From Rhizophagus irregularis (taxonomy: Eukaryota > Glomeromycota > Glomeromycetes > Glomerales > Glomeraceae): DNA of 64,000 nt. The position numbers were made by a program, and so were the translations under genes. Positions 4,370-62,151 of the stretch are shown here, one piece after another (position 1 is the first letter of the stretch; each line of letters opens with the position of its first letter). The notes beneath the pieces were generated by a model, which was not told the origin of the DNA, did not search any database, and saw only the letters and a list, made by a program, of their open reading frames with translations. The stretch spans positions 682,001 to 746,000 of the forward strand of contig NC_089430.1 of NCBI RefSeq assembly GCF_026210795.1. The letters run 5' to 3'.

Positions 4370-6172
4370 TAGTGCTCCGAAAAAAATCTGATCTGATCTG
4401 GGATCCGCAGATTTGATCCGAGCCAGATCGGTTCGGTTTTCAAAATTTTGATCCATAGATCAGATCGGATTTAAAAAAAATCTGATCTGATCAGATTCAG
4501 ATCGGATCAGATCAAACACGAGAAAATCTGATCTGATCTGAACAGATTTCGGATCAGATTTTTTTTTTAAATTTTTAAAAAAAATTCATTTTTTTTTTAA
4601 AAACCCTTTCCTGGATGAACGGACGCCGGACGACCAAGATTTAAAAGAACTAACTAGGTAAGTTCATTTCTTTTTTTTTGTTATTTTTACTTGAGGGAAC
4701 TTAATTAACGGTTCCCTTCTTTTTATTAGGAAGCCTGGACGAACGAAGCCTAACGACCAGGATTTAAAAAAAAAAGAACGAACCTATGGTGAGTTCGTTC
4801 TTTTTTTAAGTTTTTTTTTTATTTTTACTTAAGGGAACGTAATTAACGTTCCCTTTCTTTTTTTTAGGAAACCTGGACGTGGACGAAGCCATTAACGACC
4901 AGGATTTAAAAAGAACGAACTATGGTAAGTTCATTTCTTTTTTTAAGTTTTTTTTTTTAATTTACTTAAGGGAACGTAATTAACGTTCCCTTTCTTTTTT
5001 TTTTAGGAAACCTAGACGTGGACGAAGCCATTAATGTCCAGGATTTAAAAAAAGAACGAACTATGGTAAGTTCATTTCTTTTTTTAAGTTTTTTTTTTTA
5101 TTTTTACTTAAGGGAACGTAATTAACGTTCCCTTTCTTTTTTTTAGGAAACCTGGACGTGGACGAAGCCATTAATGACCAGGATTTAAAAAAAGAACGAA
5201 CTATGGTAAGTTCATTTCTTTTTTTAAGTTTTTTTTTTTATTTTTACTTAAGGGAACGTAATTAACATTCCCTTTCTTTTTTTTTAGAAAACCTGGACGT
5301 GGACGAAGTCGTTAATGACCAGGATTTAAAAAAAGAATGAACTATGGTAAGTTCGTTTCTTTTTTAAGTTTTTTTTTTTAATTTACTTAAGGGAACATAA
5401 TTAACGTTCCCTTTCTTTTTTTTTTAGGAAACCTGGACGTGGACGAAGCCATTAACGACCAGGATTTAAAAAAAGAACGAACTATGGTAAGTTCATTTCT
5501 TTTTTTAAGTTTTTTTTTTTAATTTACTTAAGGAAACGTAATTAACGTTCCCTTTCTTTTTTTAGGAAACCTGGACGTGGACGAAGCCATTAACGACCAG
5601 GATTTAAAAAGAACGAACTATGGTAAGTTCATTTCTTTTTTTAAGTTTTTTTTTTTATTTTTACTTAAGGGAACATAATTAACGTTCCCTTTCTTTTTTT
5701 TTAGGAAACCTGGACGAACGAAGTCGTTAAGACGTTAACGACCAGGATTTAAAAAAAAAGAACGAACTATGGTAAGTTTGTTTCTTTTTTTAGGTTTTTT
5801 TTTATTTTTACTTAAGGGAACGTAATTAACGTTCCCTTTCTTTTATTTTTAGGAAACCTGGACGCGAGACGAAGCTGAACGACCAGGATTTAAAAGAACG
5901 AACTATGGTAAGTTCGTTTTTTTATTTTTTATTTTATTTTTTTTTACTTTAAGGAACGTAATTAACGTTCCCTTTCCTTTTTTAGTACAAGGACCAGATC
6001 CGAACCAGATTCGGATCAGATTCAAATCGGATTCAAATGGATCCGAACCAGATTCGGATCAAATTGAACCAGATCTGATCAGATTCGGATCAGATCAGAT
6101 CTATTAAAATAAAAATCAGATCGGATCAGATTTAAGCTAAATCCGGTCTGAACCGATCTGTTAGGAGCACTA
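4370..6172. mobile_element. hAT-like non-autonomous element with internal tandem array
   Basis: A 1,803 bp element bounded by inverted termini TAGTGCTCC and GGAGCACTA and flanked by an 8 bp duplication GTTGAAAG. An 8 bp duplication and a T/CAG start are hallmarks of the hAT superfamily. Subterminal regions (4380-4560 and 5985-6155) are dense in short motifs of the GATCTGATC and GATCCGAACCAGAT type in both orientations, as expected for transposase-binding repeats. No transposase ORF is present, so it depends on another copy. The interior (4607-5985) is a tandem array described separately. Left and right termini differ at a few bases, so the insertion is not brand new. Confidence 0.85.
4607..5985 (+). 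repeat. Tandem array, ~135 bp units with splice-like ends and three hairpins
   Basis: About ten units. Each reads TTTTTAG, then a 55-67 nt block starting GAAACCTGGACG and ending ACTATG, then GTAAGTTC, a T-rich stretch, GGGAACGTAATTAACGTTCCC-type palindrome, and the next TTTTTAG. Block lengths measured from AG to GT are 59, 57, 59, 59, 59, 59, 59, 57, 67 and 55. They are mostly not multiples of three, and joined blocks hit stops, so a coding role is unlikely. Three nested inverted repeats recur in each unit: CCTGG...CCAGG, AAAGAACGAAC...GTTCGTTCTTT, and GGGAACGT...ACGTTCCC. Confidence 0.9.
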
Positions 6173-15948: not shown

Positions 15949-17581
15949 TTAATTTCCTCCATCTATAACAAAAAAATAGTTTAATTAAATTTAATAGATA
16001 AAAAAATCACATGCAAAGAAATTACCTTTAGAATTAATATCAAGTTTAGTAAAATCCATTTTTAAGGAATCTGTAAAATAAAGGAATAATTATTACTCTA
16101 AATAGAATTAAATAATTATTTTAATTAAAGTTACCTGAATATTCTAAATCAGTATTGTCTGCATTTTTGGGTTCTGGAAGATTTTTAAAATCCAAAAGAC
16201 TACTTGTATAAACTGCTTGAGGGTGTGTTGTATATAAGAGATTACTAGTAGATGATAATGGTGGTTGATCCATTGAAGATGACAAGTTTTTATTAATATC
16301 ATCTGTTTCTTTAACTTGCCTATAAATTACAGAATCCACTTTACTACTATTAATAGCAGCCCATAAACCATAAAATAACCTAGATAATTCATATGCATTA
16401 GGTCGTTTTAAAGGGTCTGCATTCCAACATTGATTAATAGTATCAAAAATTAATTGAGGAATTTTATAATTGGACTTTGGCCTCAACCCCTTGCAAATTT
16501 TCATTGCTAAAAATTCATCATGAGCTATATCATAATAAGGTGGGAAACCTGTACAAATTTCATATGCAATAATTCCATATCCATAAATATCACTTGCTTG
16601 TGTATATTCTTTTCCTCTTAAAACTTCTGGTGCTACATAAGGTAATACTCCATATATTTTTTTATTACTATTTTGAGAGAATCCGACATTTGCTGGTTGA
16701 CATAGTCCCAAATCAGTAATATAAGCTTGGCCAATAAAGTTACTTAATATATTCCCACAATGAAAATCATGATGAATTAAACCTTCATGATGAATATCTT
16801 TAAGACCATTTGCAACACTTTGTAAAATCATCAATTTTTGGCTCCAATTCAGTGAAATGAAATAGTTATTCAAATGTTGTCTTAAACTACCATCTTTTAA
16901 TTGCATCACCATCATAAAATTATTTGTTTTTGGATCTTTTGTAATACCAAAACAACAAACTGTCCAACCAGAATGATATACTAAAATATTTGATTCAACC
17001 TTAAAATAAAATTATACTAGTTAGTTTAACATTTATAAAGGATAATGAAGATTCATAAGAAAATATCTTACTTCTTTTAAAAAATCTGCTGTAATACCTT
17101 GTGAATTATATAAACATTTTAAAGCAACTTTTGTCTCACCATTTCTTTTCCACTGATTATTATCATAATTCCATCTCAAAATATTTCCATCTTTCCAAAC
17201 TGCTTTAAAAGTAGTTCCAAATCCTCCTTTTGCTAAATATTCAACATCTTCAAATTTATCATATTCAATCCACTCTATGATATGCCTTGGATCTTTAGCT
17301 TTCAATTGTGCTTTTTTAATAAATTCATCAACGTCATGATTTCCACTTGTCCAATTTTTGAAATTTTGTTTAAAATGCTGTAAAATACATGGCCAACAAA
17401 CACAATAACCAGTATTAGGCTGCTTACATTCTTTACATAAACCAAATACTTTATAAAGTTCTTTTAATTCTTTGTCTGTTATTAGTTTATCGATTAACGA
17501 TTCTTGTTCTTCGGTCAAATTATGATTGTCAAAATCTTTTATTTGTTCAAATACATCATCACTTAGTTTAATTTCAGCCAT
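15949..17581 (-). CDS. TKL-like protein kinase, CxxC N-terminus, four exons
   Basis: Proposed exons are 17581-17072, 16999-16135, 16070-16026 and 15962-15949 (477 residues). All junctions are GT-AG and in phase. Start: the second Met (M-A-E-I-K) fits the relatives better than the upstream one. C-K-E-C (49-52) and C-V-C-W-P-C (60-65) suggest a small zinc-binding module, followed by N-W-T-S-G-N (76-81). The kinase domain starts near 104: glycine loop G-G-F-G (119-122), V-A-L-K with Lys145, catalytic loop I-H-H-D-F-H-C-G-N (Asp248), D-L-G (266-268) in place of DFG, A-P-E (293-295) and C-W-N-A-D-P-x-x-R-P. The HRD arginine is replaced by His. Such kinases phosphorylate Ser/Thr or Tyr on protein substrates; the substrate here is unknown. 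The C-terminal tail carries the family motif Y-T-S-S-L-L-D-F-K-N-L-P-E-P. Short phase-1 tail exons resemble those of the kinase at 55.4-57.7 kb. Confidence 0.88.
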
Positions 17582-17762
17582 TTTAATAAATAATTTATTA
17601 AACAAAAAAAAAGAAAGGAAAGAAAAAAGAAATAGTGGTTAAACGTTGCAATGATGTCGAGATCGGCAACAAATTATCAAAAAGACTATTAAAATACTAA
17701 AATACACAGAAACTCTAATCTTGATCGGCAATTAATTTATTCAATTTTGGCAATTGTGGCTT

Positions 17763-17770: not shown

Positions 17771-18600
17771 AATTCCCATAATAGGCAACGTGAGTTTAAG
17801 TTAAACTTTTACGAATGTTGAATATTACTAACCAAAATAGAATTTGAAAATTTGAGAAAGAATTCGTTAGTTTCTGTGGAATTGATATCGTATTAACAAA
17901 ATCCGAAAATAATTTATGGAGAATTGCGAATAATAATATATCTTTATAATATATATATAGTATATATATATTAAAACAAAATTATTTTGAAATATTTACA
18001 AAATCTTGTTTTTGACTTCAAATTTTCACTAAATTTTCATTTGAAAATAATTAATAAATAAATAAAATCACATCTTTAATAAAAATGTGAAATTTTAATA
18101 TTTAATAAATTCATAAATTATTGATAGACCTTTATTTAGAATATATCATATAATTTGAGCTTCAGGTTTGTAATAATAAATTGCATTTTATTAGTACTTA
18201 TCCCAGTTTTTTATTGGCTAAATTCCAGATCACATGATATAGAATCAGCTCAGAAAATTGAAACAAAATCATGTGATTGTCGAGTATCAGCACCATATGT
18301 AGATTATGAAATTACATAATATAATTTTAAAAATTATGGTAATGATGTAAAAGTTTATTCTACATGATCACCACTTTAGATGTAACAGATGTAACTGATC
18401 ATTTCCAAGTTGGTTTTAACAAAAAAAGTGCGAATTAAGAAAATGTTTTTTTCATGATTTTTGCTGTGTAACAATGAGGCTTGATGATTCATGATTGACA
18501 CACATTTCAGATATATGTGCAAAATTTGTTGTTGTACATAATGCTTGTACTTATGATCAACACTTTTGCGCATAATGCATTTTGCATAAATATTATTACC
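17771..18600. other. Intergenic, likely shared upstream region of two divergent kinase genes
   Basis: No ORF worth calling. It separates the minus-strand kinase from the plus-strand gene starting at 18705. The octamer CACATGAT or its complement appears near 18230 and 18268 and also near 15168, which might be a shared site. Confidence 0.4.
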
Positions 18601-18704
18601 ATATATATATACTTATAAAGGTGTTTAATAATAAAAAAAAAGAAAAAAAGAATATTTACATTATCTTTTCCAGTCAGAAAGAATTTTAATATAATTGTAT
18701 AGTA

Positions 18705-18920
18705 ATGGATGATAAAGGTAATAATCAATATATAATATAAACATTTAATACAATTAGAATTCTAATATTTTTAAACAAATTTACAATATAATAAAACTAG
18801 TTTCTAGTAATATTGAATTTGAAGGAAGCAGTACTAAAGAATTTGAAGGAAATAGCTCTAAGGAATTCAAAGAAAGTGGCTTTGAAGAATTTGCAAAAAG
18901 CAGTACCAAGGAATCTAAAG
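18705..18920 (+). CDS. N-terminal exons of the array-linked kinase gene
   Basis: Two exons are proposed. The first is 18705-18717 (M-D-D-K plus one base), ending at GTAATA. The second is 18801-18920, after the acceptor AAAACTAG, entering and leaving in phase 1. The second exon encodes a Ser/Glu/Lys-rich segment with an imperfect repeat of the type S-S-T-K-E-F-E-G-N-S-S-K-E-F, with no stop. A TATA-like run lies at 18601-18610. The donor at 18921 (GTATAT) is followed by the microexon array and, at 26868, by the kinase exon. Linking these pieces into one gene is inference; the exon could instead belong to a short separate transcript. A second donor (GTAAAA) is available after A-G-C-A-T near 18931. 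Confidence 0.5.
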
Positions 18921-19907
18921 GTATATTAAGCATGTAAAAATATTAAGTTTTTATATTTAAATACTATCTATAATAATTATATCTTATATAATATACAAAT
19001 ATAGCTCGTAAGTTAATATAGGTTATCTTATAACTGAATAATAATGGAATTACTTATCATTTTTATCACATTTCATGTAATTAAATAATTCATTTAATGG
19101 TTTAGTTGGTAAGTTATTAGTTATTTAAGTTATTAATTCTTTATTTTGTTATTTTGCATAATATTCAAATAACTAAATTGAGTAAATTCTTTATTTAATT
19201 AACTATTTAATAATTAATTGTGTTACAGAAGGTAAGTTACAATATCATATTTATTTGTTTAATATTTATATAACTTAACTAATTATATTCTTAATTTAAA
19301 TAACTAGATTGTAAGTGATATATTTATTTACAGTAATTACTTTTATATTATATTTATATTTAACTAATACAGTAATTAATTAATAATACTAGGGTGTAAG
19401 TTATAGAATACTTACATTTCTATTATTTAAATTAACTAAATTAACTAAATTCTTTATTTAAAAAATTATTTTGTAATTTCTTTAGTTGGTAAGTTATAAG
19501 TTATTTATTCATAATAATTACATATAATTTAAACTAACTAAATTTTTTATTTAAACAGATCGTAAGTTATAATTTATTTATTTAATTCTATTATTACTTA
19601 TTGTTATAATATTTTACATATAATTTAAACTAACTAAATTCTTTATTTAATAAATTATTTAATAATATAGATAGTAAGTTATTTAATTCTTGTTATAATA
19701 TTTAAATGTAATTTAAATTAACTAAATTCTTTAATTAAAAAATTATTTTCTAATTTCTTTTAGTTGGTAAGTTATAAGTTATTTATTTAATTCTATCATA
19801 ACTCATTGTTGTGATATGTACATATAATTTAAACTCACTAAATTCATTATTTAAAAAATTATTTAATAATATAGGGAGTAAGTTATTTATTTAATTCTAT
19901 TATTACT

Positions 19908-20292
19908 AAGGATGCTCATTGGTCCTAAAAGATCATGGTCTTACAGTCTTACACCTTGAAAAGACAAACCAGTCCATCTTGGTGTAGGACTGTGGTCTTT
20001 CAGCCCTATATCACATACAATAAGACCATCAGTATTTTTAAGAACCACAGTCTTTTTAAGACTGATCAGTTTTTTTTGCTTTTTTTTTTTGCAAACAAAA
20101 AAATTTTTTGAGCTTTAAATTTAATATAAAATCATTTATTATGAGAAGACCAGTATGAGGACTGGTCAGTCCTCAGGACCAGTCCTACTGCACACAAAAA
20201 AATGCAAAACCGTGGTCTGGTCCTACAAGTCCTGGGACTGACCAGTCTAGGGTTGAGTAGGACCAGTAGGACCAATGATCATCCTTATTAGT
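19908..20292. mobile_element. hAT-like MITE inside the microexon array
   Basis: A 385 bp insertion with inverted ends AAGGATGCTCATTGGTCCTA (left) and, on the other strand, AAGGATGATCATTGGTCCTA (right). The flanking TTATTACT at 19900-19907 and 20293-20300 matches a single copy in neighbouring array units, so an 8 bp duplication is well supported. The interior is rich in GGTCCTA and GACCAGT motifs in both orientations. No ORF. Confidence 0.82.
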
Positions 20293-23200
20293 TATTACTT
20301 ATTGTTATAATATTTGCACATAATTTAAACTAACTAATTTCTTTATTTAAAAAATTATTTAATAATATAGAGAGTAAGTTTTTTATTTAATTCTATTATT
20401 AACAATTGTTATAGTATTTACATATAATTTAAACTGACTAAATTCTTTATTTAAAAAATTATTTAATAATACAGGGAGTAAGTTATTTATTTAATTCTAT
20501 TATTACTTATCATTATAATATTTGCATAAAATTTAAACTAACTAAATTCTTTATTTAAAAAATTATTTAATAATATAGAGAGTAAGTTATTTATTTAATT
20601 CTATTATTACTTATTGTTATAATATTTACATATAATTTAAACTAACTTATTTCTTTATTTAAAAAATTATTTAATAATATAGGGCGTAAGTTATTTATTT
20701 AATTCTATTATTATTGTTATAATATTTACATATAATTTAAACTAACTAATTTCTTTATTTAAAAAATTATTAAATAATATAGAGCGTAAGTTATTTATTT
20801 AATTCTATTATTACTTATTGTTATAATATTTATATATAATTTAAACTAACTAAATTCTTTATTTAAAAAATTATTTAATAATATAGAGAGTAGTAAGTTA
20901 TTTATTAAATTCTATTAATATATTATTTTAATTTAACTATTACATATAATTTAATTAGACTAACTATAATATTTACATATAATTTAAACTAACTAATTCT
21001 TTATTTAAAAAATTGTTTAATAATATAGAGAGTAGTAAGTTATTCATTAAATTCTATTATTATATTATTTTAATTTAAATATTACATATAATTAGACTAA
21101 CTATAATATTTACATATAATTAAACTAACTAAATTCTTTATTTAAATAGATTGTAAGTTATAAGTTATTTCTTTAATACTATTATTCCTTATTGTCATAA
21201 TATCCACATAGAAATTTAAACTAACTAAATTCCTTATTTAAAAAATTATTTTGTAATTTCTTTTAGTTGGTAAGTTATAAGTTATTTATATAATTTGATT
21301 ATAACTCATTGTTATAATATTTACATATAATTTAAACTATCTAAATTCTTTATCTAAAAATATTATTTTATAATATAGGAAGTAAGTTATTTATTTAATT
21401 CCATTATTACTTATTATTACAATATTTCATATAATTTAAACTAATTAAATTCTTATATGATTTTGCTATTGCTTATTGTTATGATATTTACATATATTTA
21501 AACTAACTAAATTCTTTATCTAAAAATTTATTTAATAATATAGGGAGTAAGTTATTTATTTAATTCTATTATTACTTATTGTTATAATATTTTATATAAT
21601 TCAAACTAACTAAATTCTTTATTTAAATAGATTGTAAGTTATAAGTTATTTATTTAATTCTATTATTACTTATTGTTATAATATTTGCACATAATTTAAA
21701 CTAACAAAAATTCGTTATTCAAAAAATTATTTTGTAATTTCTTTTAGTTGGTAAGTTATAAGCTATTTATTTAATTTTATTATTACTTTTTGTTATAATA
21801 TTTATATGTAATTTAAACTAACTAAATTCTTTATTTAAAAAATTATAGAAAGTAAGTTATTTACTTAATTCTATTATTAACTATTGTTATAATATTTAAC
21901 TAAATTTTTTATTTAAAAAATCATTTAACAATATATTTACTTGTACTATTATTACTTATTGTTATAATATTACATATAATTTAAACTATCTAAATTCTTT
22001 ATTTAAATAGATCGTAAGTTATAAATTTTCATTTAATCCTATTACTATTACTTATTGTTACAATATTTACATATTAAAAAAATATTTTGTAATTTGTTTT
22101 AGTTGGTAAGTTATAAATTATTTACTTAATTCTATTTTATAATGTTTACAAATAATTTAAACTAAATAAATTCTTTATTTAAATAGATCGTAAGTTATAT
22201 TTAATTCTTGTAATATTTTACATATTATTTAAACTAACTAAATTCTATTTAAAAATTATTTAATAATATAGAGAGTAAGTTTTTATTTAATTCTGTTATT
22301 ACTTATTGTTACAATATTTATATATAATTTAAACTAATTAAATTCTTTATTTAAAAAATTATTTTGTAATTTCTTTTAGTTAGTAAGTTATAAGTTATTT
22401 ATATAATTCTATTATTACTTATTGTTATAATATTTACAAATAATTTAAACTAACTAAATTCTTTATTTAAAAAATTATTTTGTAATTTCTTTTAGTTAGT
22501 AAGTTATAAGTTATTTATTTAATTCTATTATTATTTATTGTTATAATATTTACATATAATTTAAACTTACTAAATTCTATTATTTAATAGATCGTAAGTT
22601 AAAGTTATTTATTTTAATTCTATTAATACTTATTGTTATAATATTTACATATATCTAAACTAACTATAATATTTACTATGTATAATTTAAATTAATTATA
22701 ATATTTACATATAATTTAAACTAACTAAATTCTTTATTTAAATAGATTGTATGTTATAAGTTATTTATTTAATTCTATTATTACTTATTGTTATAATATT
22801 TAATATGATTTAAAACTAACTAAATTCTTTATTTAAAAAATTATTTTATAATTTCTTTTAGTTGGTAAGTTATAAGTTATTTGTATAATTTTATTATTAC
22901 TTATTGTTATAATAATTACATACTATTTAAACTAACTAAATCTTTATTTAAAAAATTATTTAATAATATAGGGAGTAAGTTATTTATATAATTCTATTAT
23001 TACTTATTATTATAATATTTACATATAATTTAAACTAACTAAATTTTTTATTTAAATAGATCGTAAGCTATAAGTTATCATTATATAATTCTATTATTAC
23101 TTATTTGTTATATAATTTAAACTAACTAAATTTTTTATTTAAAAAATTATTTTGTAATTTCTTTTAGTTGGTAAGTTATAAGTTATTTATTTAATTCTAT

Positions 23201-24843
23201 TATTACTTATTGTCATAATATTTACATATAATTTAAACTAATTATATTCTTTATTTAAATAGATCGTAAGTTATAAGTCATTTATTTAAATCTATTATTA
23301 CTTATTGTTACATTATTTACACATAATTTTAAAAAATTATTTTGTAATTTCTTTAGTTGGTAAGTTATTAGTTATTTATTTAATTCAATTATTACTTATT
23401 GCTATGATATTTATACTATATAATTTAAACTAACTAAATTCTTTATTTAATAATATAGAGAGTAAGTTATTTATTTAATTCTATTATTATTTATTGTTAA
23501 TATTTACATGTAATTCAAACTAACTAAATTCTTTATTTAAAAAAATTATTTAATAATATAGGGAGTAAGTTATTTATTTAATTCTATTGTTACTTATTGC
23601 TATAGTATTTACATATAATTTAAACTAAATAAATTCTTTATTTTTATTTAAAAAATTATTTTGTAATTTCTTTTAGTTGGTAAGTTATAAGTTATTTATA
23701 TAATTCTATTATTACTTATCATTATAATATTTACATATAATTTAAACTAACCAAATTCTTTATTTAAAAAATTATTCATTTAGTTGGTAATTTATAAGTT
23801 ATTTATTTAATTCTATTATTTACTTATTGTTATAATATTTACGAATAATTTAAACTATAATATTTATACATAATTTTAACTAATTTTAATATTTTATATA
23901 TGATTTAAACTAACTAAATTCTTTAATTAAATAGATCGTAAGTTAAAGTTATTTATTTTAATTCTATTAATACTTATTGTTATAATATTTATATATAATT
24001 TTAAACTAACTAAATGCTTTATTTAAAAAATTATTTAATGATATAGGGGGTAAGTTATTTATTTAATTCTATTGTTGTTATAATATTTACATATAATTTA
24101 AACTAACTAAATTCTTTATTTAAATAGATCGTAAGTTATAAGTTATTATATAATTCTATTATCACTTATTGTTATAATGTTTACATATAATTTAAATTAA
24201 CTAATCCTTTATTTAAAAATATTTAATTATATAGAGAGTAAGTTATTTATTTTATTATATTATTATTTATTGTTATAATACTTAAACTAACTATAACAGA
24301 TAATATTTACATATAATTTAAACTAACTATAATATTTATACATAATTTTAACTAATTTTAATATTTTATATATAATTTAAACTAACTAAATTCTTTAATT
24401 AAATAGATCGTAAGTTAAAGTTATTTATTTTAATTCTATTAATACTTATTGTTATAATATTTACATGTAATTTAAACTAACTAAATTCTTTATTTAAATA
24501 GATCGTAAGTTCTAAGTTATTATTTAATTCTATTATTACTAATTGTTATAATGTTATCATATAATTTAAACTAACTAAATTCTTTATTATATTTAATAAT
24601 ATAGGAAGTATGTTATTTATTTAATTCTATTGTTACTTATCATTATAATATTTATATATCATTTAAACTAACTAAATTCTTTATTTAAAAAAATTATTTT
24701 GTAATTTCTTTTAGCGGGTAAGTTATAAGTTATTCATTTAATTCTGTTATTATTTATTATTATAATATTTACATGTAATTTAAACTAATTTAATTCTTTA
24801 TTTAAATAGATGGTAAGTTATAAGTTATTATATAATTCTATTA

Positions 24844-24975
24844 CCGTATTTTGCGGTAAGTAAGCACCCCGAAAATAAGCACCCCGGCCAGAATTATGGC
24901 GATTTTGGCCAAAATTATGAGGATCTTGGACGGCATTAAGTGCAAAAGGGGATGCTTATATACCACAAAATATGG
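24844..24975. mobile_element. 132 bp TA-flanked MITE inside the array
   Basis: Inverted ends CCGTATTTTGCGGTA and, on the other strand, CCATATTTTGTGGTA, with AAGCACCCC-type sequence just inside both. Flanked by TA at 24842-24843 and 24976-24977. Excision in silico restores the array consensus CTATTATTACTTATTG. Tc1/mariner-type by target preference. Confidence 0.85.
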
Positions 24976-26251
24976 TATTACTTATTGCTATAATGGTTAC
25001 ATATAATTTAAATTGACTAAATTCTTTATTTAAAAACTTATTTCATAGCTAGTAAGTTATTTATTTATAATTCTATTATTACTTATTGTTATTATATTTA
25101 CATATAATTTAAACTAACTAAATGCTTTATTTAAAAAATTATTAAATAATATAGGGAGTAAGTTATTTATTTAATTCTATTATTACTTATTGTTATAATA
25201 TTTACATATGATTTAAACTAACTAAATTCTTTAATTAAATAGATCGTAAGTTAAAGTTATTTATTTTAATTCTATTAGTACTTATTGTTATAATATTTAT
25301 ATATAATTTTAAACTAAATTATTTAAAAAATTATTTAATGATATAGGGGGTAAGTTATTTATTTAATTCTATTGTTGTTATAATATTTACATATAATTTA
25401 AACTAACTAAATTCTTTATTTGAATAGATCGTAAGTTATAAGTTATTATATAATTCTATTATCACTTATTGTTATAATGTTTACATATAATTTAAATTAA
25501 CTAATCCTTTATTTAAAAATATTTAATTATATAGAGAGTAAGTTATTTATTTTATTATATTATTATTTATTGTTATAATACTTAAACTAACTATAACAGA
25601 TAATATTTACATATAATTTAAACTAACTAAATTCTTTATTTAAATAGATCGTAAGTTATAAGTTATTATATAATTCTATTATCACTTATTGTTATAATGT
25701 TTACATATAATTTAAACTAACTAAATCCTTTATTTAAAAATATTTAATTATATAGGGAGTAAGTTATTTATTTTATTATATTATTATTTATTGTTATAAT
25801 ATTTAAACTAACTATAACAGATAATATTTACATATAATTTAAACTAACAATAATATTTGTACATAATTTTAACTAATTTTTAATATTTATATATAATTTA
25901 AACTAACTAAATTCTTTAATTAAATAGATGGTAAGTTATGTTATTTATTTAATTCTATTATTACTTATTGTTATAGCATTTACATATAATTTAAACTAAC
26001 TAAAATTCTTTATTTAAATAGATTGTAAGTTATAAGTTATTTATTTAATTCTTGTTGTAATATTTATATATATTTTGACTGACTAAATTCTTTATTTAAA
26101 TAGATTGTAAGTTATAAGTTATTTATTTAATTCTATTATTACTTATTGTTGCAATATTTATATATAATTTTGACCGACTAAATTCTTTATTTAAATAGAT
26201 TGTAAGTTATAAGTTATTTATTTAATTCTATTATTACTTATTTTTATAATA

Positions 26252-26435
26252 CAGTGACACCTTTCTAAGTGCACTCCCTTTGGTATTATAATAAAAAATA
26301 GTAGAATGTGCAGTGTGCATTTATAGAAAGTAAAATATTAAGAGCTCTAATAAGTTGGTACCAGTCCCACTGCACTTAAAGAGAATTTGTATAGTACATG
26401 CACTTATAGAGGGTGCACTTATAGAGGTGTCACTG
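26252..26435. mobile_element. 184 bp mariner/pogo-type MITE inside the array
   Basis: Ends CAGTGACACCTTTCTAAG and, on the other strand, CAGTGACACCTCTATAAG. Several TATAAGTGCA-type motifs repeat inside. Flanked by TA at 26250-26251 and 26436-26437, and removal restores TTATAATATTTACAT of the array. Non-coding. Confidence 0.87.
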
Positions 26436-26867
26436 TATTTACATATAATTTAAACTAACTAAATTTTTTATTTAAATAGATTGTAAGTTCTAAGTTATTT
26501 ATTTAATTCTAATATTACTTATTGTTATAATATTTACATATTGATATAATTTGGGCTAACTAAATTTTTTATTTATAAAAATTATTTAATAATATAGCTT
26601 GTAAGTTATTTGTTGTTTTTATTATTATATATTTATAAATATTTATTTGTTAATTGAATTCTATTCATATAAAATTTCTGTTACTTTAGTTGGTAAGTTG
26701 TGAAATATAGGCTATTATCATATATATTTATATGCAAAACTAAACATATATTATAATTAATTTCTATTTAAATTTTAGAGTAAGTAGTGTTGATTTTAAT
26801 CTTAAATTTAGTGTAATTTTTAATATAACTTTAATAATTATTTTAATTGTTTAATATATATATATAG

Positions 26868-28065
26868 ATATGGAAAAAGTGGAAATACAATTATAGATAA
26901 TTTTATTTTAGAAAAAAAGTTAAAATGGATTCCCTACGATGAATTTAAAGATGTTAAATATCTTGATAAAGGAGGATTTGGTACTATATACAAAGCTATT
27001 TGGTATTATAATCATAAAGAAGTAATTCTTAAGTGTCATAATAATTTAAATGAAAATTTAAATGAATTTTTAAATGAAGTATGATAATATATTATTTATT
27101 TTTTAATTTGAATTATAATTTATTTATACTAATATATTATCACTTTTTTATAGTGGGAATATCATGAAAGTTGTTTAAATTCACATGATATTATTTATTT
27201 TTATGGGTTTACAAAAGATCCAGATACTTTAAAATATATGGTAGTAATGGATTATGCAAATAAAGGTAATTTAAGAAGAAACTTAACAAGAATAATCAAA
27301 AGTGGTTGGTATCAAAAATTATATATGTTATTTGGAATTATTTCTGGACTTAATGATATACATGAACAAAATCTTATCCATTGTGACTTTCATGATGGCA
27401 ATATTTTAAGACATAGTGAAAAAAAAATTTATATTAGTGATTTAGGATTATGTAAACCTGTAAAATCATTTTTGAAAGAATATAAGATTTATGGTGTTAT
27501 ACCATTTATGGCACCAGAAGTTTTAAGAGGCAAACCTTATACTCCAGCTAGTGATATATATAGTCTTTCTATGATTATGTGGGAATTTACATCTGGGACA
27601 CCTCCATTTAATAATAGAGCACATGATTTACAACTTAGTTTAAGTATTTGTGAAGGTGAACGTCCTGAAATTATTGAAGATACTCCACAATGTTATGTAG
27701 ATTTGATGAAAAAATGTTGGAATGAAAACCCATCAAAAAGGCCATCTTCTAAAAAAGTGTTAAATATTATTAAAAAATGGATTTCTCTTTCTGATAATGT
27801 CAAAATTGAAGATATTAATGAAGAATTAAAATGCAATATTATGGAATTTATAAATGCACCAATTGGGCATAACAATAATCTTGCTACTGAATCTCACCCA
27901 CAGGCATATTATACAAGTCGCTTACTTAGTTTTACTAGTAAACAGTTAAATGAAATTCTCAAAAGTAGAGATTTGCAAGTTTATTATTCAAGTCGATCTA
28001 TTAGTGAAAAAGTGAATGAAATTCTTGAAAGTGAAGATTTACAAGCTAGTGTAAAAAGTGAATAA
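26868..28065 (+). CDS. TKL-like protein kinase domain exons downstream of the array
   Basis: Exons 26868-27078 and 27154-28065 (donor GTATGA, acceptor TTTATAG, phase 0). The first begins after TATATAG and must be entered in phase 2. It starts Y-G-K-S-G-N-T-I-I-D-N-F, a degenerate form of the N-W-T-S-G-N-D-D-I-D motif of the relatives, then W-I-P-Y-D-E-F and the glycine loop G-G-F-G. V-I-L-K supplies the ATP lysine. The catalytic loop is I-H-C-D-F-H-D-G-N (HRD arginine replaced by Cys), then D-L-G-L-C, A-P-E-V-L-R-G and C-W-N-E-N-P-x-x-R-P. The tail contains a duplicated block: N-E-I-L-K-S-R-D-L-Q and N-E-I-L-E-S-E-D-L-Q. The CxxC module of the sister genes is absent from these exons. No ATG suits a separate start before the glycine loop, so the real N-terminus must lie upstream, through the array or in it. 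Confidence 0.82.
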
Positions 28066-28540
28066 AATGCTACCAGTAAGTAAAGATTAGTATATAAAAA
28101 GAATTAATTTTGCAATTATTTATGTAAAATTAATTTTATTTATTTAATTATTTAGATATTAAAACTGATAAAAAATAACTAGTAAATATTGGTGTTTATA
28201 AGAATTTATAGTTTTTTTATAAGTGATATTTGATGTCATGCATTTAACAGAAATTATTGTTTAGATTTATTTAAACACTAAAGCTAGAGTACTAGTAAAA
28301 TATTTTACAATATTCTTAGTTTGTAATTTAAATAATTCCTTTTTTTATATCTTATTCATATATGTATTTTCTTTTTTTTGAATTATTTAAACACTAAGGC
28401 TAGAGTAGTAAAATTTTACAAATTTCTTAGTTTGTAATTTAAATAAATCTTTTTTTTTAGCTTTCCAATTATTAAATATAACTAGAAATGTGTCTAATAC
28501 CAGGGACTCCATCCCTGGACAACCTTGTCAGTAATGTCAA
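28066..28540 (+). repeat. Non-coding tail with a ~95 bp direct duplication
   Basis: The segment near 28261-28345 (TTTAAACACTAAAGCTAGAG ... TTAGTTTGTAATTTAAATAA) recurs near 28385-28452 with small changes. No gene. Confidence 0.6.
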
Positions 28541-46819: not shown

Positions 46820-47143
46820 AAAAAACTTCTAATGCCAACTTTTCGCAAAAACTCTTCCTGTGCCACTAAAAGTCCCTGTTAAATTGTTGCATCATTCAAT
46901 ATTTGTATAATTTCATTATTTTGTTGATCATTAAAATTTCATAAAATATTGCAAAAAAATAAAAAAATTGTAAAAAAAACGTTTCAGCGTTTTTTCATAT
47001 AATATTATTAAAAAAAATGCCAAAAACTTTTTTTTTTGCATTACTATTAAGAAAAAAACATTTTGGCATTTTTCCATATAAAATTATAAAAAAAATAACA
47101 CAAAAACGTTTTTTCTTCATTTTTTATTTTTTTAACAAAAAAT

Positions 47144-48690
47144 GTCAAGACTGACGTTTTTAATTAAAAAAAACCAATATTTTTTTGATTTTTAATCACA
47201 AAAATGTCAAGTCTGACGTTTTTAATTAAAAAATCATTTTTTTTGATTTTTTAATCACAAAAATGTCAAGTCTGACGTTTTTAATCAAAAAAATCATTTT
47301 TTTTGATTTTTTAATTACAAAAACGTCAAGTCTGACATTTTTAATTAAAAAAAACCAATATTTTTTTAATTTTTATTTTTTAATCACAAAAATGTCAAGT
47401 CTGACGTTTTTTAATTAAAAAATCATTTTTTTGATTTTTTAATAACAAAAACGTCAAGTCTGATGTTTTTAATCAAAAAAATCATTTTTTTTGATTTTTT
47501 AATTACAATAACGTCAAGTCTAACGTTTTTAATCAAAAAAATCATTTTTTTTTTGATTTTTTAATTACAAAAACATCAAGTCTGACATTTTTAATCAAAA
47601 AAATCATTTTTTTGATTTTTTAATTACAAAAACGTCAAGTCTGATGTTTTTAATTAAAAAAAACAATATTTTTTTGATTTTTAATTACAAAATGCCAACT
47701 GCCAAGTCTGACGTTTTTAATTAAAAAATCAATATTTTTTTGATTTTTAATCACAAAAACATCAAGTCTGACATTTTTAATTAAAAAAAACCAATATTTT
47801 TTTTGATTTTTAATCACAAAAACGTCAAGTCTGACGTTTTTAACTAAAAAAATCAATTTTTTTACAAAATTGTCAAATCTAACGTAAAAAATAATTTTTT
47901 GAATCATAAAAATGTCAAATCTGACGTTTTTAATTAAAAAATCATTTTTTTTTTATTTTTAATCACAAAATTGTCATGACTGACGTTTTTAACTAAAAAA
48001 ATCATTTTTTTTGATTTTTTAATTAAAAAACGTCAAGTCTGACGTTTTTTAACTAAAAAAATCATTTTTTTTGATTTTTTAATTAAAAAACGTCAAGTCT
48101 GACGTTTTTTAACTAAAAAAGTCATTTTTTTGATTTTTTAATTACAAAAACGTCAAGTCTGACGTTTTTTAACTAAAAAAGTCATTTTTTTGATTTTTTA
48201 ATTACAAAAATGTCAAGTCTGACGTTTTTTAACTAAAAAAGTCATTTTTTTGATTTTTTAATTACAAAAACGTCAAATCTGACGTTTTTAATTAAAAAAA
48301 TCATTTTTTTTATTTTTAATCACAAAAATGTCATGTCTGACGTTTTTTAACTAAAAAAGTCATTTTTTTTGATTTTTTAATTACAAAAACGTCAAGTCTG
48401 ACGTTTTTTAACTGAAAAAGTCATTTTTTTTTGATTTTTTAATTACAAAAACGTCAAGCCTGACGTTTTTTAACTAAAAAAATCATTTTTTTGATTTTTT
48501 AATTACAAAAACGTCAAGCCTGACATTTTTTAACTAAAAAAATCATTTTTTTGATTTTTTAATTACAAAAACGTCAAGCCTGACGTTTTTTAACTAAAAA
48601 AGTCATTTTTTTGATTTTTTAATTACAAAAACGTCAAGTCTGACGTTTTTAATAAAAAATCAATTTTTTTTATATTTAATTATAAAAACG
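47144..48690 (+). repeat. 60 bp hairpin satellite, about 25 copies
   Basis: Each unit contains ACGTCAAGTCTGACGT, a 6 bp inverted repeat with a 4-base loop, and a second inverted repeat AAAAATCA...TGATTTTT. Copies at 48030-48640 are nearly identical and lie about 60 bp apart; the left side is more diverged. Related but decayed AAACGTTT motifs precede it from 46975. Confidence 0.93.
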
Positions 48691-49490
48691 TTTGATGACC
48701 CGACCCAAAATTTTCGAGTCAATCTGACAGTATAATGATTATAACTCACTAATAATTACCAAGTTACTCTAGTTAAATATATGCTATATGTTCAAGGTTG
48801 CATATGTTAAACATATCGAACATTCGTAACATTTGCAACATTCGTAACATGATCATCGGTCACGATTATTCTATAATCAATCAAATATTTAACTGATCAC
48901 GTAATAGTGATGTGAAATTATTACTTTTTAAAATTTTATTTATGTTTTATAATTTTTAAACTTTTATTGAGTAGTCAATAAATACTCAATAATTTTAAGA
49001 GTCATGTGAGGGTATAAGTTTAGTATTAGTTATTGCTTATCCCATAATTATTGTTAACAAAAAAAAATATTATTAGTGGGTGAATGTCCCAACATCCAGT
49101 ATCACCCTAAAGACTGTGGATTAGGTATTTAATTAACTCAAAAAGTTACTTTAAGAAATTGACAATCTTGCGGATTCTTGCAGATGCATGATCAATCAAA
49201 AATCGATTAATCTTGATTGATCATGAGTGTGCAATTGATTTTTTAATCAATTTTGTAGTTCATTCAAACAAAAGAAGGATACTATTTGGTTTAAAATCAT
49301 TTTAACAATAATTTTTTGCATAAAAAAAACTCATTTATATTTATTCATCATATTACATAATATTCATATTACTAATTGGTAAATTGTGAGATCGTCCAAT
49401 TTAAGCAAAATTGATTGTTTATTTTATTTATTTTATGTCAAGCAGGAAATTGCCTACTGAGGCTATTACAATTCAAAAGAAGAGAAATAA
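48691..49490. other. Non-coding stretch
   Basis: No gene recognised. Confidence 0.4.
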
Positions 49491-55386: not shown

Positions 55387-57662
55387 TCAAAATCCATCTA
55401 AAGTTAAAAAATAACAAATTATAAATCAATTATTTGCTTTAAAAAGAAATTTAATTTATTTAAGAACTTACGATCAGGAATTTCCAGTTCATCTTGTTCT
55501 TCTGAATGAAGATTTGGATTATTATATACTTCGTCATCATCTATAAGAAAATAAACATAATTAAAATAGTATAAAAATTGTTTGTTATTACGTAAGATTT
55601 TCACCTACCATCGACATGTTGTTGAGTTATTTCCTTTTCATCATCTAAATTTTAAATGAAGGTCGCGTTAAATAACGAAATTGATATAGTAATTTTGTTC
55701 GTTAGTAATTAATTTACTTACTATTTGACTTTATTTGCAACTTTTTAAATAATTTAGATAATTTTTTATTACTATCTAAAAATTAAAATATAGATTTAAT
55801 ATATAAATCAATCTCTATTTGACAATAATTAAAATACATTACCTCTAAAAATAGTAATTACTTTTGATGATTTGCTATTTCGCTTATTTGATTTATTAAA
55901 ATCATTAACTAAAATAAATATCAATTATTAAACATCATTATGTAATAATTCAATGCTGTAATGTTAATAAATACTTACTATCGCGAGGAATGTTAAAATC
56001 ATACAATTTACTATGAAACACTATTAGTAGTAAAGTAATGTATTTTAAAAATTAAATTATTATAGTCACCAAAAAATGGTAAAAATTATTGTTTATATGG
56101 TTATACCTTCTTGTTCTTCTATTATAATAAAATGATAATATTAATAATGTATTTTAAAATAAATACATTCATTAATAAAATATTATAACTTATACCTTCT
56201 GTTGCATTTCTTGGTTCAGATAGATTTTCAAAGTTGTGAATTTTACTTGTAAATAATCTGCTATTCGTATAATTTTCTTCTACTTTATTCATTTCTAAAT
56301 TATCTATTTCTGATTTGAATAATTCATCTGACATATTTTGAAATTAATTTTATGCATTTTTCTCTCAAGTGCATTAACGTTGGGTCTTTTTAATGGATCA
56401 GCATCCCAACATTCTTTCATTAAATTTTTATATTCTAATGGAGTTCTTGGCACGATTTTTGGTCTTATACCGTTAATAATATTCATTACAATATCATTTT
56501 CATGTTCATATTTTATAAATGGTGTTTGTCCAGATGAAATTTCCCACATAAGAATTGCAATACTATAAATATCTGATGCAAAAGTATATTCTCTTCCAAC
56601 AATAACTTCGGGTGCTATGTAAGGAAGATTTCCATATATACTTGTTGAAGATTTATCAGCAGGTCCACAAAATCCAAGATCACTGATACACCACCGATCA
56701 TTAAATTGAGAATATAATATATTTCCAGAATGTAAATCTCTATGAATTGCTTTCTCATCATGAATATAACTAAGTGCAAGTATTACTTCATAAGTAATAT
56801 TAATTCTATCTTTCCATGTAAGTTGATTATGATTTTGTTGTAAATATTTTCTTAAATTTATATCCATTTTATTCATTACAAGCATATAATTTCCATTTGA
56901 TGGATTTTGCGTTAAACCATAACATCGAACAACATCCGCCCATTTATTACTTATAGTTAAATGTGATTTAGCCTAAAAAGCAGTAATTTGTAAAAATGCT
57001 CATATTAATATAAAACCTGCATAATTTTATACAATAAATTTAGAATATAATTATACAAACCTCTTCAAACCAACTTTGATTTGCATTTCTAAAGTTTTAA
57101 GTACTACTTCTGCCACCATGTTTTGCATTCCAGGTCTTTCAATTCTTTTTAATTGTTTTTTTTCAGAATCCCATTCATCATAACCTCCATTAATCCAATC
57201 TGCTGTATAAATTTCTGAGAATCCACCTTTTGTTAAATATTTTATATTTTCTAAATTACTATATGGGATCCATTCAACCACCATATTTGGCATAAGTGAT
57301 TCCATTTGACATTTCTGTATTAAATTATCAATATCATCATTCCCAGATGTCCAATTTGGAAAATTTTCTTGTAAATAATTTCGAACACAATATTCACAAT
57401 ATAATGTAGCTAAACATTCTTGGTTACAATTTTCACAAATTCTTTTTGTTCCTGAATTAAAAATAATTTTATTTCGATCATAAGTTTTAGTTAACCATCT
57501 TATTGCATAAGTATTTTCGTCATTTCTAAGAATTTTATCAGCAAGGACTGTTTGTTTTTGAAATTCAAATCGTTTGTGTATATCATCGTAAATATTAGTA
57601 TCTGTTAATGTTATTGCTCTATTAGTTGTTGCAGCAATTAATTCATATCGAAGAGTGGACAT
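55387..57662 (-). pseudogene. TKL-like protein kinase gene with two frameshifts and many small tail exons
   Basis: Exon 1 (57662-57061) carries C-E-N-C (76-79) and C-E-Y-C (89-92), N-W-T-S-G-N-D-D-I-D, W-I-P-Y, a glycine loop reading G-G-F-S (146-149, third Gly lost) and V-V-L-K (Lys189). Exon 2 (56972-56196) has I-H-R-D-L-H-S-G-N, D-L-G-F-C, A-P-E-V and C-W-D-A-D-P-x-x-R-P. Each exon is one base short of matching its neighbours: one base is missing near 57086-57090 and one in the A run at 56336-56339. After exon 2, at least seven short exons can be traced down to a TGA at 55389-55387, and all these introns are phase 1. One exon is only 12 nt, encoding an E-E-Q-E-type stretch; others encode K-L-Y-D-F-N-I-P-R-D and N-D-F-N-K-S-N-K-R. 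The gene is intact except for two single-base losses in or beside short homopolymers, which could also be assembly errors. Confidence 0.82.
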
Positions 57663-59220
57663 AATGTAATCAATAAGAAAGAAAGATATAATTATTTTAA
57701 GTTCGTTACTACGAGATAAATTAGTAAAATGCAAATTGTTGATCAAACTTCATGCCCACATAAATTTTGTGATCTTGAGGCGTAGTATTTTACGCCTCAT
57801 AATCAAAAAAAGAAAAATATTATCGTACTTCAGTTTCTAATTTTAATTTTATTTATTTATTTTTTTTCAGCAAATACAATTTGTGTTTAACAAATTTGAT
57901 ATACTTAATGAATAGATAATATTCAGTTCCTTGATTATATTGATTAATATTCAAATAATTTAGTAAACGAAAATCAATGATTGTTATTCAACAGATTATT
58001 AATTTGTAGTTATTTTTAAATCTTACTTAAAAAACAATATATTGTTGATGAACGGGACAATTTTTCTTTAGTTATTTTAAATTGAATTTATTTTAAATAA
58101 ATAACATGGTGAATAATGAACATGAAAGATTATTAAGTAATCATTCAACTTATTATTCTACTAAAAAAGTCTATATATTATAATGATAGGTTTGAATAAA
58201 ATATATATGGTTAGTAAAAAAAAAAAAATAAATGAAGAGATAATTACATCATTATGTGTGTTACTTTAACAATTTAGTATAAATAATGAATAGATCAGGC
58301 GTAGGGATTTTCATATTATGGCACGATTTTCATATAAATTCTTACGTATTTTATTTATCGATAATCTGTGAAGTCTAACTTTATTTTGCATAATCTGGCG
58401 TTTAGAATAGCCTCCATGTAAATAATTTGAATTGTGTAATAAGATTTTTATATCAAGAATGGTTACTCGTGAGATTTAGTACATCATTGTCAACCAGATA
58501 AAGAAAGCTTTTAAGATGAAGTTTGGATCATCTATCCATTTAGTTTGTGGGCTTGACCGAGATGAGCAAAACTTAAATGACAAGAATGGGCTCTATTAAT
58601 AACCGTAGACTGATATTATAATAACTAAACTATTGTACTACTAAACAATCAATGAATCGATAAATGAAACTTTTTATGGCAAAAATGGTTCATTTTACTA
58701 TATCGATGCCAATGCAATGTTAAATGTGTGAATTTTCTATCATTGTTGATTAAAGTACTTCATTTATAGCGAGAATGAACATGCATAAGCTATACTATTC
58801 TGAGATTTATAAAAGCAAGAGTATAAGCGTGACATATCTGCCGATCCGCAGAACGCATAGCATCGAATTATCACTTGCATTCTGCAGATCGGTTAATATA
58901 AATGCAACGTGACTGACTTTCAAAATTAAGGAAATAAAGAAATACATATACCATAAATGTCAGATAATTTTACAGAAGTTTTTAGAGAAGTTTTTAACTG
59001 ACATAATTCATAATTTTTTTTTTATATATTTATGGATTTACGACAATCAAGTGAACTAATTGATATTATCGGAATTGTGATTTTTTTTTTTAGGGTCGTT
59101 TATTGTAAATCGCCCTATTAAATGATTTATTACAGATTTACAGGGTGTGTTTTGTCCGAAAAATGTTGAGGTAATATACAGAAAATGTACCGAGAATGCC
59201 GAAAGAAAAAAAAATACACT
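57663..59220. other. Intergenic stretch
   Basis: No gene. An imperfect inverted repeat around CTGCCGATCCGCAGAACGCA and TGCATTCTGCAGATCGG lies at about 58838-58895. Confidence 0.4.
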
Positions 59221-60365: not shown

Positions 60366-60485
60366 TTTACAATTTTGTCGATCTAAAAACTTATAATACC
60401 ATTTTTTTTAATAAAAACCACGCATTAAATTCTTTATCGAATATTGATTGTTAAATCTACTCAAGTAATAATTATTATTTGTATC

Positions 60486-62151
60486 ATGGATCAATCAAAT
60501 ATAGAAGAACAAAAATATGGAAGATGTATAGGATGTAAACAAATAAGTACATCACTCTTATGTTATACTTGTGATTCACTTTTTAAAGAAAGAAAATCTG
60601 GAAAGTGTATAGTATGCAAACAAATAAAGCAAAAAGCTAAGGGAACAAGAACATGTCATACTTGTTATTCAACTTCTCTAGAACAAAAATATGGAAAGTG
60701 TATAGAATGCAAGCAAATAAATACTGGAATTGATTGGTGTCAAACTTGTAATTCAAAAAGATTTCAACAAAATTTTAACAATTGGACTAGTAATAATGAT
60801 GATATTGATAAATTTATTCAAAATATTCAGTTATCAGCAAGAAATAAATATCAATTATTAGAGTGGATACCCTATGATAGATTTTCTGAAGTTGTATATG
60901 TTGCAAAAGGAGGATTTGGCAAAGTATATAAAGCAATTTGGCAAGATGGCAAGATATCACATTGGGATGTGAGTAAAAATCAATGGGAAAGAAATAGTGT
61001 GCGTATGCACGTAGCTCTTAAAAGTTTAAATGACTCTCAGAACCTCAAATCACAATTTATCAAGGAGGTAACAAAATTGGGTTATTGAATTTTTTTTCGA
61101 AATATTTTTGTTTTGCAAATTATAATAAATTTTGATAATTTAGATTACGTCACAACTCAAAATAGTTGAAGATAGACCACTGAACCAATTTATTAGATGC
61201 TATGGAATAAGTCAAGACCCAAATACAAAAGAATATATCATGGTTATGAAATTTGCTGATTGGGGAGGTTTGCGAAATTATTTTGATAAGAAAGAAAAAT
61301 ATGAAAAGAAATCGCGTGAAGAAAATATCCTCTATTTGAAATTGAGACGTAAAATTATTGTTATGAATTGTATTGCAACTGGGCTTAAGAGAATTCATGT
61401 AAAAGGATTAATTCATAGAGATTTACATACCGGAAATATAGTATGTTTTAAAAGTATGATTTGTATAACTGATATGGGATTATGTAAACCAGCAAATTAT
61501 GAGGAATTAGAAAATTCAGAAAATAATGCGTATGGCGTTTTACCTTATGTAGCACCTGAGGTTTTAAGAGGAGAACATTATACACAAGCATCCGATATTT
61601 ATAGTTTTGGCATAATTATGTATGAGGCAATTTCGGAAATGCCTCCATATTATGATATTAATCATGATGAAGTTTTAGCAGTAGAGATCTGTAAAGGGTT
61701 AAGACCCAATTTTAATATTAAAGTACCACAATTAATCATTGAATTAATAAAGAAATGCTTAGATGCAAAACCATCAAATCGACCAAATGCAAAGGATCTT
61801 TCAAGAATTTTTAAAGAATTAATGATAGATTTTAATAGACGTAAACCAGAATTAATTAAACAAATTGAAGAAATAAGCAATAGTTTATCAGATTTACCTT
61901 CAATAAATAAAATGAATACGATGCATTCTGGAGCTATATATACAAGTAGATTACTTAGTTTTAAAAATCTTCCCGAACCGAAAAATTCTGATGATTATTA
62001 TGAATATTTTGATAATATAACAAGTATGAAATATTCAGGTATTTATAAAAAATCTTACCTTATTACTCATTCAATCTACTTATATAAACTAATATTTAAT
62101 AAATATTTTTATGTAATGACAGAATGTTTGGATTGTGAAGTTAAAGATTGA
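60486..62151 (+). CDS. TKL-like protein kinase with three CxxC pairs of pairs, three exons
   Basis: Exons 60486-61067, 61144-62038 and 62123-62151 (501 residues), GT-AG borders, phases 0 and 1. The ATG at 60486 is the first good start. The N-terminus holds three tandem modules, each with two CxxC pairs: C14/C17 with C26/C29, C41/C44 with C57/C60, and C72/C75 with C85/C88. Each is a likely small zinc ribbon, opened by G-K-C-I-x-C-K-Q-I. N-W-T-S-N-N-D-D-I-D follows. The kinase domain has G-G-F-G-K-V-Y (from 142), V-A-L-K (Lys179), I-H-R-D-L-H-T-G-N (285-287 HRD), D-M-G (304-306), A-P-E-V-L-R-G and a C-L-D-A-K-P-x-x-R-P end. Catalytic residues are complete, so it is probably active. Related kinases here have one module. 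The tail has Y-T-S-R-L-L-S-F-K-N-L-P-E-P and ends C-L-D-C-E-V-K-D. Confidence 0.9.

Follow-up and report, generated by a model that had tools for sequence, protein, structure and literature searches.

Tandem arrays of predicted 3-nt exons, probably read one codon per unit, precede kinase domains in Rhizophagus irregularis

Introduction

Micro-exon genes of Schistosoma mansoni contain exons of 6 to 81 bp (3-81 in the abstract), many of them 15 bp, separated by introns of 0.1 to 5 kb, and encode secreted proteins (PMC10526429). Shorter exons have been described singly: micro-Ex8 of Drosophila homothorax is one 3-nt exon that is alternatively used and follows a donor rule of the GTAAGT or GTGAGT type (PMC7392893), the 1-nt exons of plant APC11 and VPS55 are needed for the right frame and keep a strong GTRAGT donor (PMC8831610), a 1-nt exon occurs in Fusarium CYP621A (PMC12940212), and the glucose-dependent Xlr2 microexon of Trichoderma virens was presented as the first functional microexon in filamentous fungi (PMC11121469). 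At recursive splicing ratchet points, the acceptor directly abuts the donor, leaving no exon behind (PMC8605326). Here we describe a kinase gene of the fungus Rhizophagus irregularis, at positions 18705 to 28065 of a 64,000-nucleotide stretch of contig NC_089430.1 (682,001 to 746,000, forward strand; hereafter the window), in which a tandem array of short introns and predicted 3-nt exons lies ahead of the kinase domain. We argue, with a probability of roughly 0.88, that this array is coding sequence split into one-codon exons, all triplets being joined in order and read in phase 1.

Like the schistosome genes, the locus has very short, symmetric exons in series and belongs to an expanded family; unlike them, it has runs of dozens of exons of exactly 3 nt, the last exon having 1 nt, with introns near 100 nt and a position before a kinase or GTPase domain (PMC10526429). 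Exons mostly of 6-81 bp and a secreted product do not describe it, the exons being of 3 nt and the product a kinase by Pfam, although secretion signals were not searched for. The distances from YAG to the GTAAGT-like donors, at 3, 6 and 1 nt, fall within the length used to define microexons (<=15-51 nt, acceptor to donor). The units share a 3-nt exon and a GTAAGT-type donor with homothorax micro-Ex8, but form an array where micro-Ex8 is one exon (PMC7392893). The plant and Fusarium 1-nt exons are single exons in single genes (PMC8831610, PMC12940212), whereas here a 1-nt exon stands at the close of the array and is repeated at roughly a hundred places. Xlr2 is likewise a microexon in a filamentous fungus, but it is one exon without an array (PMC11121469). 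Ratchet points also pair a close acceptor and donor in long transcribed stretches (PMC8605326). Here the distances are 3, 6 or 1 nt, with zero only at one double option (19232), and recursive splicing was rejected because the gap is not zero. Our literature search, which had preprints and most subscription journals outside its scope, returned no arrays of 3-nt exons and no Rhizophagus microexons among the matches listed. Introner elements are mobile, near-identical introns inserted at scattered sites, whereas the units described here are tandem within genes. While single 3-nt and 1-nt exons are already known, consecutive runs of dozens would be unusual in their extent.

Results

A kinase gene in the window contains an array of intron-plus-triplet units

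The array has a unit period of ~100 bp and lies between an upstream exon, which ends at 18920, and the kinase exon that begins at 26868. The gene is laid out as follows, all on the + strand.

18705..18717, +, coding exon 1, ATGGATGATAAAG, ending in phase 1 (exon chain from ATG)
18801..18920, +, coding exon 2, VSSNIEFEGSSTKEFEG...KESK, ending in phase 1 with G followed by GTATAT (exon chain)
18921..26867, +, tandem array of intron-plus-triplet units, mostly ~80-118 bp, with 64 triplet exons, two 6-nt exons and one 1-nt exon
19005..19395, +, triplets 1-5: CTC at 19005, TTG at 19106, AAG at 19229, ATT at 19308 and GGT at 19393
20887..20892, +, 6-nt exon AGAGTA, donor GTAAGT at 20893
21029..21034, +, 6-nt exon AGAGTA, donor GTAAGT at 21035
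25380..25848, +, two-unit block duplicated recently (period 221, 2.1 copies, 97% matches)
26598..26600, +, triplet exon CTT (array parse)
26690..26692, +, last triplet exon, TTG (array parse)
26779..26779, +, 1-nt exon A; a Glu codon is spread over three exons (G of TTG, this A and the A that opens the kinase exon)
26868..27078, +, kinase exon A, 211 nt (1 mod 3), without an in-frame Met and with the Gly-rich loop GGFGTIY
27154..28065, +, kinase exon B, the remaining kinase domain through the stop codon

The kinase assignment comes from Pfam matches at window 27238-28062 to PF00069 (106 bits, cut-off 31.7) and PF07714 (105.1 bits, cut-off 23.1). Among donor-like sites between 18900 and 26900, 60 GTAAGT sites lie 3 nt after a YAG, and four variant donors at the same distance (GTATGT at 22749 and 24608, GTAAGC at 23063 and GTAATT at 23787) bring the number to 64. 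Over the wider interval 18600-28100 there are 65 GTAAGT sites, for which the nearest YAG is at 3 nt in 60, at 6 nt in two and at 1 nt in one; the other two have no near YAG, one being within an inserted element at 24856 and one past the kinase stop codon. When exon length was permitted anywhere from 1 to 60 nt (free parse), exons of 3 nt were returned almost throughout the arrays. The free parse of the window gave nine exons of other lengths, of which, judged by eye, five are entirely contained in inserted elements, one extends into an insert and three fall in ordinary array; two of these last three stretches contain or end in a normal triplet site. By eye we also noted three insertions with inverted ends, resembling miniature inverted-repeat transposable elements, in array introns (~19908-20287, 24845-24975 and 26253-26440), and the adjoining triplet exons are intact.

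Read in phase 1, the window array gives a linker of ~68 residues, ALEDW...DYYYSF, following an acidic, Ser-rich N-terminus. Triplets 1-5 with the preceding G encode the initial ALEDW, and their order is common to the paralogs. The mean Kyte-Doolittle value of the linker is -1.04 (hydrophilic) in phase 1 and +1.45 in phase 0.

The 3-nt spacing holds across paralogs and genome-wide

We searched a genome of 146.7 Mb on 32 contigs (C numbers below; L numbers are fetched loci and P numbers public gene models). In nine kinase arrays (the window, L039 and L042-L048), the nearest YAG lies at 3 nt for 272 of 299 GTAAGT sites, at 6 nt for two, at 1 nt for nine (the terminal exon of each array) and at 7 or 11 nt for two; 14 sites have no near YAG, and none has one at 2, 4 or 5 nt. 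GTAAGT follows 274 of 348 parsed exons, and CTAAY stands ahead of the acceptor in 210 of 306 units. The intron lengths of these 306 units, a count that admitted 3- and 6-nt exons only (304 and two, respectively), divide as 94/118/94 modulo 3.

Genome-wide, the pattern GTAAGT-N65-95-YAG-N3-GTAAGT occurs 3737 times compared to 33 for the reversed pattern, which served as the control. With a gap of 4-5 nt, the counts are 63 and 116, i.e. background level, and with a gap of 1-2 nt they are 178 and 100, with 59 of 100 listed places being terminal 1-nt sites. Taken together, these data bear out the spacing that the sequence-only reading had described for the window (64 YAG-NNN-donor units, two intervals of 6 nt and a last one of 1 nt at 26779), and homologous arrays without multiple-of-three spacing, its contrary case, were met in none of eight paralog arrays, seven further arrays or the genome-wide counts.

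The frame is continuous only through the array

Exon chains from a start codon reach the array in phase 1 in 6/6 genes examined, using a script that allowed only internal exons beginning with TTT or TTA. In two of these genes (the window and L046) a longer alternative chain leads to phase 2; in the window it runs through one longer, phase-2 alternative of exon 2. Kinase exon A is 1 mod 3 and requires phase 2 in eight of nine genes, the ninth being the interrupted locus L043. With phase 1 at the end of the upstream exons and phase 2 required by the kinase exon, direct splicing across the array would lose the kinase frame; the triplets hold phase 1, and the single terminal A changes it to phase 2. 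Exon A of the window has no in-frame Met, and a complete kinase domain therefore needs an upstream start. The proposed upstream phase, the phase-2 requirement of exon 26868-27078 and the need for the final 1-nt exon thus stood up in this comparison, and the proposal of one codon per unit in phase 1 agrees with both the frame chain and the stop avoidance described next.

Stop codons are avoided between immediate neighbours only

In phase 1, each junction codon joins the third base of a triplet to bases 1 and 2 of its successor, ~100 nt away in the DNA. We examined 16 kinase arrays in all: 12 belong to the 107 places with the terminal motif (100 listed), and four (L042, L043, L048 and L060) lie outside the strict pattern. 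The odd hit C12:955402 is not part of this set. The broken copy L043 was retained in the tests, while L001-L038, L049 and L056-L059 were fetched but lie outside them. A first count over nine arrays (335 exons) left out any exon above 6 nt or of a length not divisible by 3, along with one TAA triplet of L048, which was kept in the shuffle, distinct-pair and skip tests over 15 arrays. Of the long exons in the parse, three from the window were trimmed to the triplet at their end, as was one from L054 in those three tests.

None of the 478 neighbouring junctions in the 15 arrays is a phase-1 stop, where ~18.5-19.6 were expected. Shuffling triplets within genes gave a mean of 19.6 phase-1 stops, with a minimum of 6 in 5000 trials. 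In phase 2, the same arrays have 89 stops compared to 75 expected. When each distinct pair was counted once, a T-ending first triplet was followed by AA, AG or GA in 0/57 cases compared to 52/195 for the others (Fisher 2.6e-7), and first triplets ending in A, C or G showed no comparable avoidance. A regex-only version, free of parsing and edits, gave the same picture in 16 arrays, with 0/364 neighbouring stops (14.8 expected).

Stops did appear once exons were skipped in silico: 17 of 430 junctions with one exon skipped (17.1 expected), 21 of 385 with two (15.8 expected) and 21 of 346 with three (14.4 expected). The regex-only version gave 9/279 for skipping one exon (11.3 expected), and per array it found a neighbouring stop in 0/16 and a skip-one stop in 8/16. 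The complete lack of stops between neighbours together with a chance rate on skipping indicates that each triplet has been selected as joined to its immediate neighbour and translated, and that selection protects the fully inclusive order only. We know of no route to neighbour-only, phase-1 stop avoidance other than consecutive splicing and translation of the triplets. The sequence-only reading had held the absence of stops to be only mildly informative, which is too cautious for 15 arrays taken together.

It had also proposed that any subset of units could be skipped, giving a large combinatorial space. Alternative splicing of this kind, in which variable subsets of triplets would supply a very large linker repertoire, has in its favour that skipping keeps the frame, because all array exons except the last are multiples of three, and that strong, identical splice sites could mispair. 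A selected repertoire should, however, avoid stops at skipped and direct junctions alike, and the skipped ones carry them at the chance rate. We thus consider this explanation very unlikely, and we rejected free combinatorial skipping as a selected function; skipping may still occur, without a mark of selected function.

The arrays share their ends across a large kinase family

A relative of the window kinase used as a query gave 130 matching stretches, ~90 of them to the main exon, and a public kinase model from Rhizophagus irregularis DAOM 181602 matches the window at 99% over the main exon. The terminal 1-nt motif is found at 107 places genome-wide compared to three in the control, and the first nine arrays hold 17 to 66 usable exons each. 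The first exons in most arrays read CTC, TTG or similar, a variable triplet, ATT and GGT, giving ALxDW or ALxNW in phase 1, and the final exons in most arrays read a T-ending triplet, TTG or TTA, and then A. The codon ahead of the last Glu is Phe in 12 of 14 arrays with a readable end; L042 has Leu and L045 has Val. The Phe lines up, by eye and without a gap, with the one found in NFxNWTSGN-like stretches of three ordinary, array-free pairs of kinase open reading frames in the window (16121-17605, - strand; 56304-57746, - strand; 60444-62151, + strand), where NFxNWTS(G/N)N stands before the kinase domain. In L043 (C1:2288500-2296500), the kinase exon is interrupted by an insertion soon after its start; its 24 regex-called neighbouring junctions are without phase-1 stops, and the break is perhaps recent.

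Elsewhere in the window we noted integrase-like retrotransposon open reading frames (817-1895) and a 60-bp tandem array with the near-palindrome ACGTCAAGTCTGACGT (47120-48691).

A second array precedes an AIG1 GTPase domain

At C1:1723.6-1731.4 kb, a second array contains 66 exons of 3 nt in the parse, and its unit is, by eye, dissimilar to the kinase unit. The donors are GTAAGT, GTGAGT and GTAAAT, the acceptors mostly CCAG, and 63 of 68 introns measure 86-129 nt; four intervals probably hide a unit. Stops in phases 0, 1 and 2 number 3, 7 and 0, respectively. The phase-2 reading has a split ATG as its start, gives MDERLWEELEESLKGLLPP... and runs via a 26-nt exon into a 931-residue coiled-coil open reading frame (join checked), which carries an AIG1 domain (PF04548, 63.9 bits compared to a cut-off of 27, residues 675-858 of L041:134-2926). 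Triples of the CAG type occur at 19 places compared to none in the control, among them C17:3901857-3902605, where the units of an array resemble the AIG1 ones (CAG-NNN-GTAAGT). Next to the AIG1 domain's closest relative, at C20, the 3.4 kb that we looked at, which stop short of the sequence further upstream, contained no array.

Discussion

The spacing, the order of end exons common to the arrays, the continuity of the frame and the avoidance of stops between immediate neighbours alone can all be read from the DNA itself. If the array is spliced in the cell as drawn here, each unit would combine a short but complete intron, having a TAG or CAG acceptor, a donor that is mostly GTAAGT and in most cases a CTAAY branch site, with an exon of exactly 3 nt. 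Intron definition is the usual mode in fungi, and, since a 3-nt exon is hardly definable as an exon, each short intron is presumably recognised alone. Introns would then be removed singly and every triplet joined in order, with the near-perfect donor perhaps offsetting the missing exon pairing with U1 and the last 1-nt exon shifting the frame to that of the kinase exon. The 1-nt exons of plant VPS55 similarly retain a GTRAGT donor (PMC8831610). Tandem duplication or loss of whole units would make the array grow or shrink, each duplication adding one intron and one codon with the frame kept, and such frame-safe duplication would let a linker that may itself be useful diversify among many paralogs. 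From genomic sequence, it seems likely that codon-per-exon arrays, encoding tens of amino acids and constitutive, are a gene architecture of their own, present in ~100 kinase genes with more than 3,700 strict-pattern adjacent exon pairs, which arose or spread at least one more time, in an unrelated AIG1-type GTPase gene.

Several observations weigh against the one-codon-per-unit, phase-1 reading. Public models of the kinase family are mostly without a triplet-exon structure. The model P0029 at C11 (L060) includes, in order, 29 of the 33 triplet sites present there from the sixth exon on, so an annotation pipeline has already threaded such triplet exons; it reads them in phase 0, however, by way of a 23-nt exon that retains part of an intron. 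The one phase-1 stop of the first count, in L046, spans 198 nt in which a unit probably went unrecognised. Units share ancestry, such that junctions are not independent, an objection partly met by the distinct-pair count. L043 and L053 stand outside the 14-array count of ends: the end of L053 could not be read clearly, and L043 has a broken kinase exon and no TTG exon found before its 1-nt exon, where CTT-A would give a stop. For the AIG1 array, the shuffle test is powerless (0.7 stops expected), and no annotated protein resembles its reading (query region 1-110; 0/279 candidates scored).

It is very improbable that the array is a non-coding satellite within one large intron, whose copies merely inherited a splice-like motif. 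The units do have common ancestry, and the same window holds large tandem arrays without a coding rule: at 4672-5983 (~140 bp, 9 copies), TTTTTAG...GTAAGT surrounds exon-like stretches of 55-67 nt with no multiple-of-three rule (residues 2, 2, 4 for 8 pairable donors out of 10). Yet splicing across the kinase array puts the kinase out of frame, stop avoidance is confined to neighbours and to phase 1, and the dissimilar AIG1 array follows the same 3-nt rule; on the frame chain and the stop avoidance together, we rejected the satellite.

Just as improbable is a phase-0 reading of the spliced triplets, or a reading in two phases that would start from different upstream exons. P0029 reads its sites in phase 0, which has only one stop among 525 triplets. 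However, P0029 arrives in phase 0 only through its exon with retained intron sequence, and the rarity of stops there is not stop-specific, because TAT, TAC, TGT, TGC and TGG are also rare (three occurrences together). Avoidance relative to shuffled order is seen in phase 1 only, although in phase 0 shuffling cannot test it. The least probable explanation, that the arrays are relics that once coded and are no longer so spliced, the kinases being made from internal starts, draws on public models that begin within the kinase exon and on the broken paralog L043, but decay would have made neighbouring stops, which 0/16 arrays have, and exon A of the window offers no in-frame Met.

Many of the other 119 listed models begin inside the kinase (several with MDNFI...) or improvise a junction. 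We also noted that P0114 has KALKDGADDDHNIEQRFGKSGN ahead of the kinase, reminiscent of the phase-1 start ALxDW, and that P0104 has a Met/Gly/Asn-rich linker. The N-termini of public kinase models are probably wrong at many places, an error that would carry over into counts of kinases and into expression work on this fungus.

Should transcripts bear out this reading, the genes would be, to our knowledge, among the most finely divided coding sequences known, and a natural stress test of the spliceosome, which would handle 3-nt exons dozens of times in a row and finally one of 1 nt. The arrays would also show how a protein linker can lengthen by one residue each time an intron is duplicated, here among kinases whose family has expanded in a plant symbiont.

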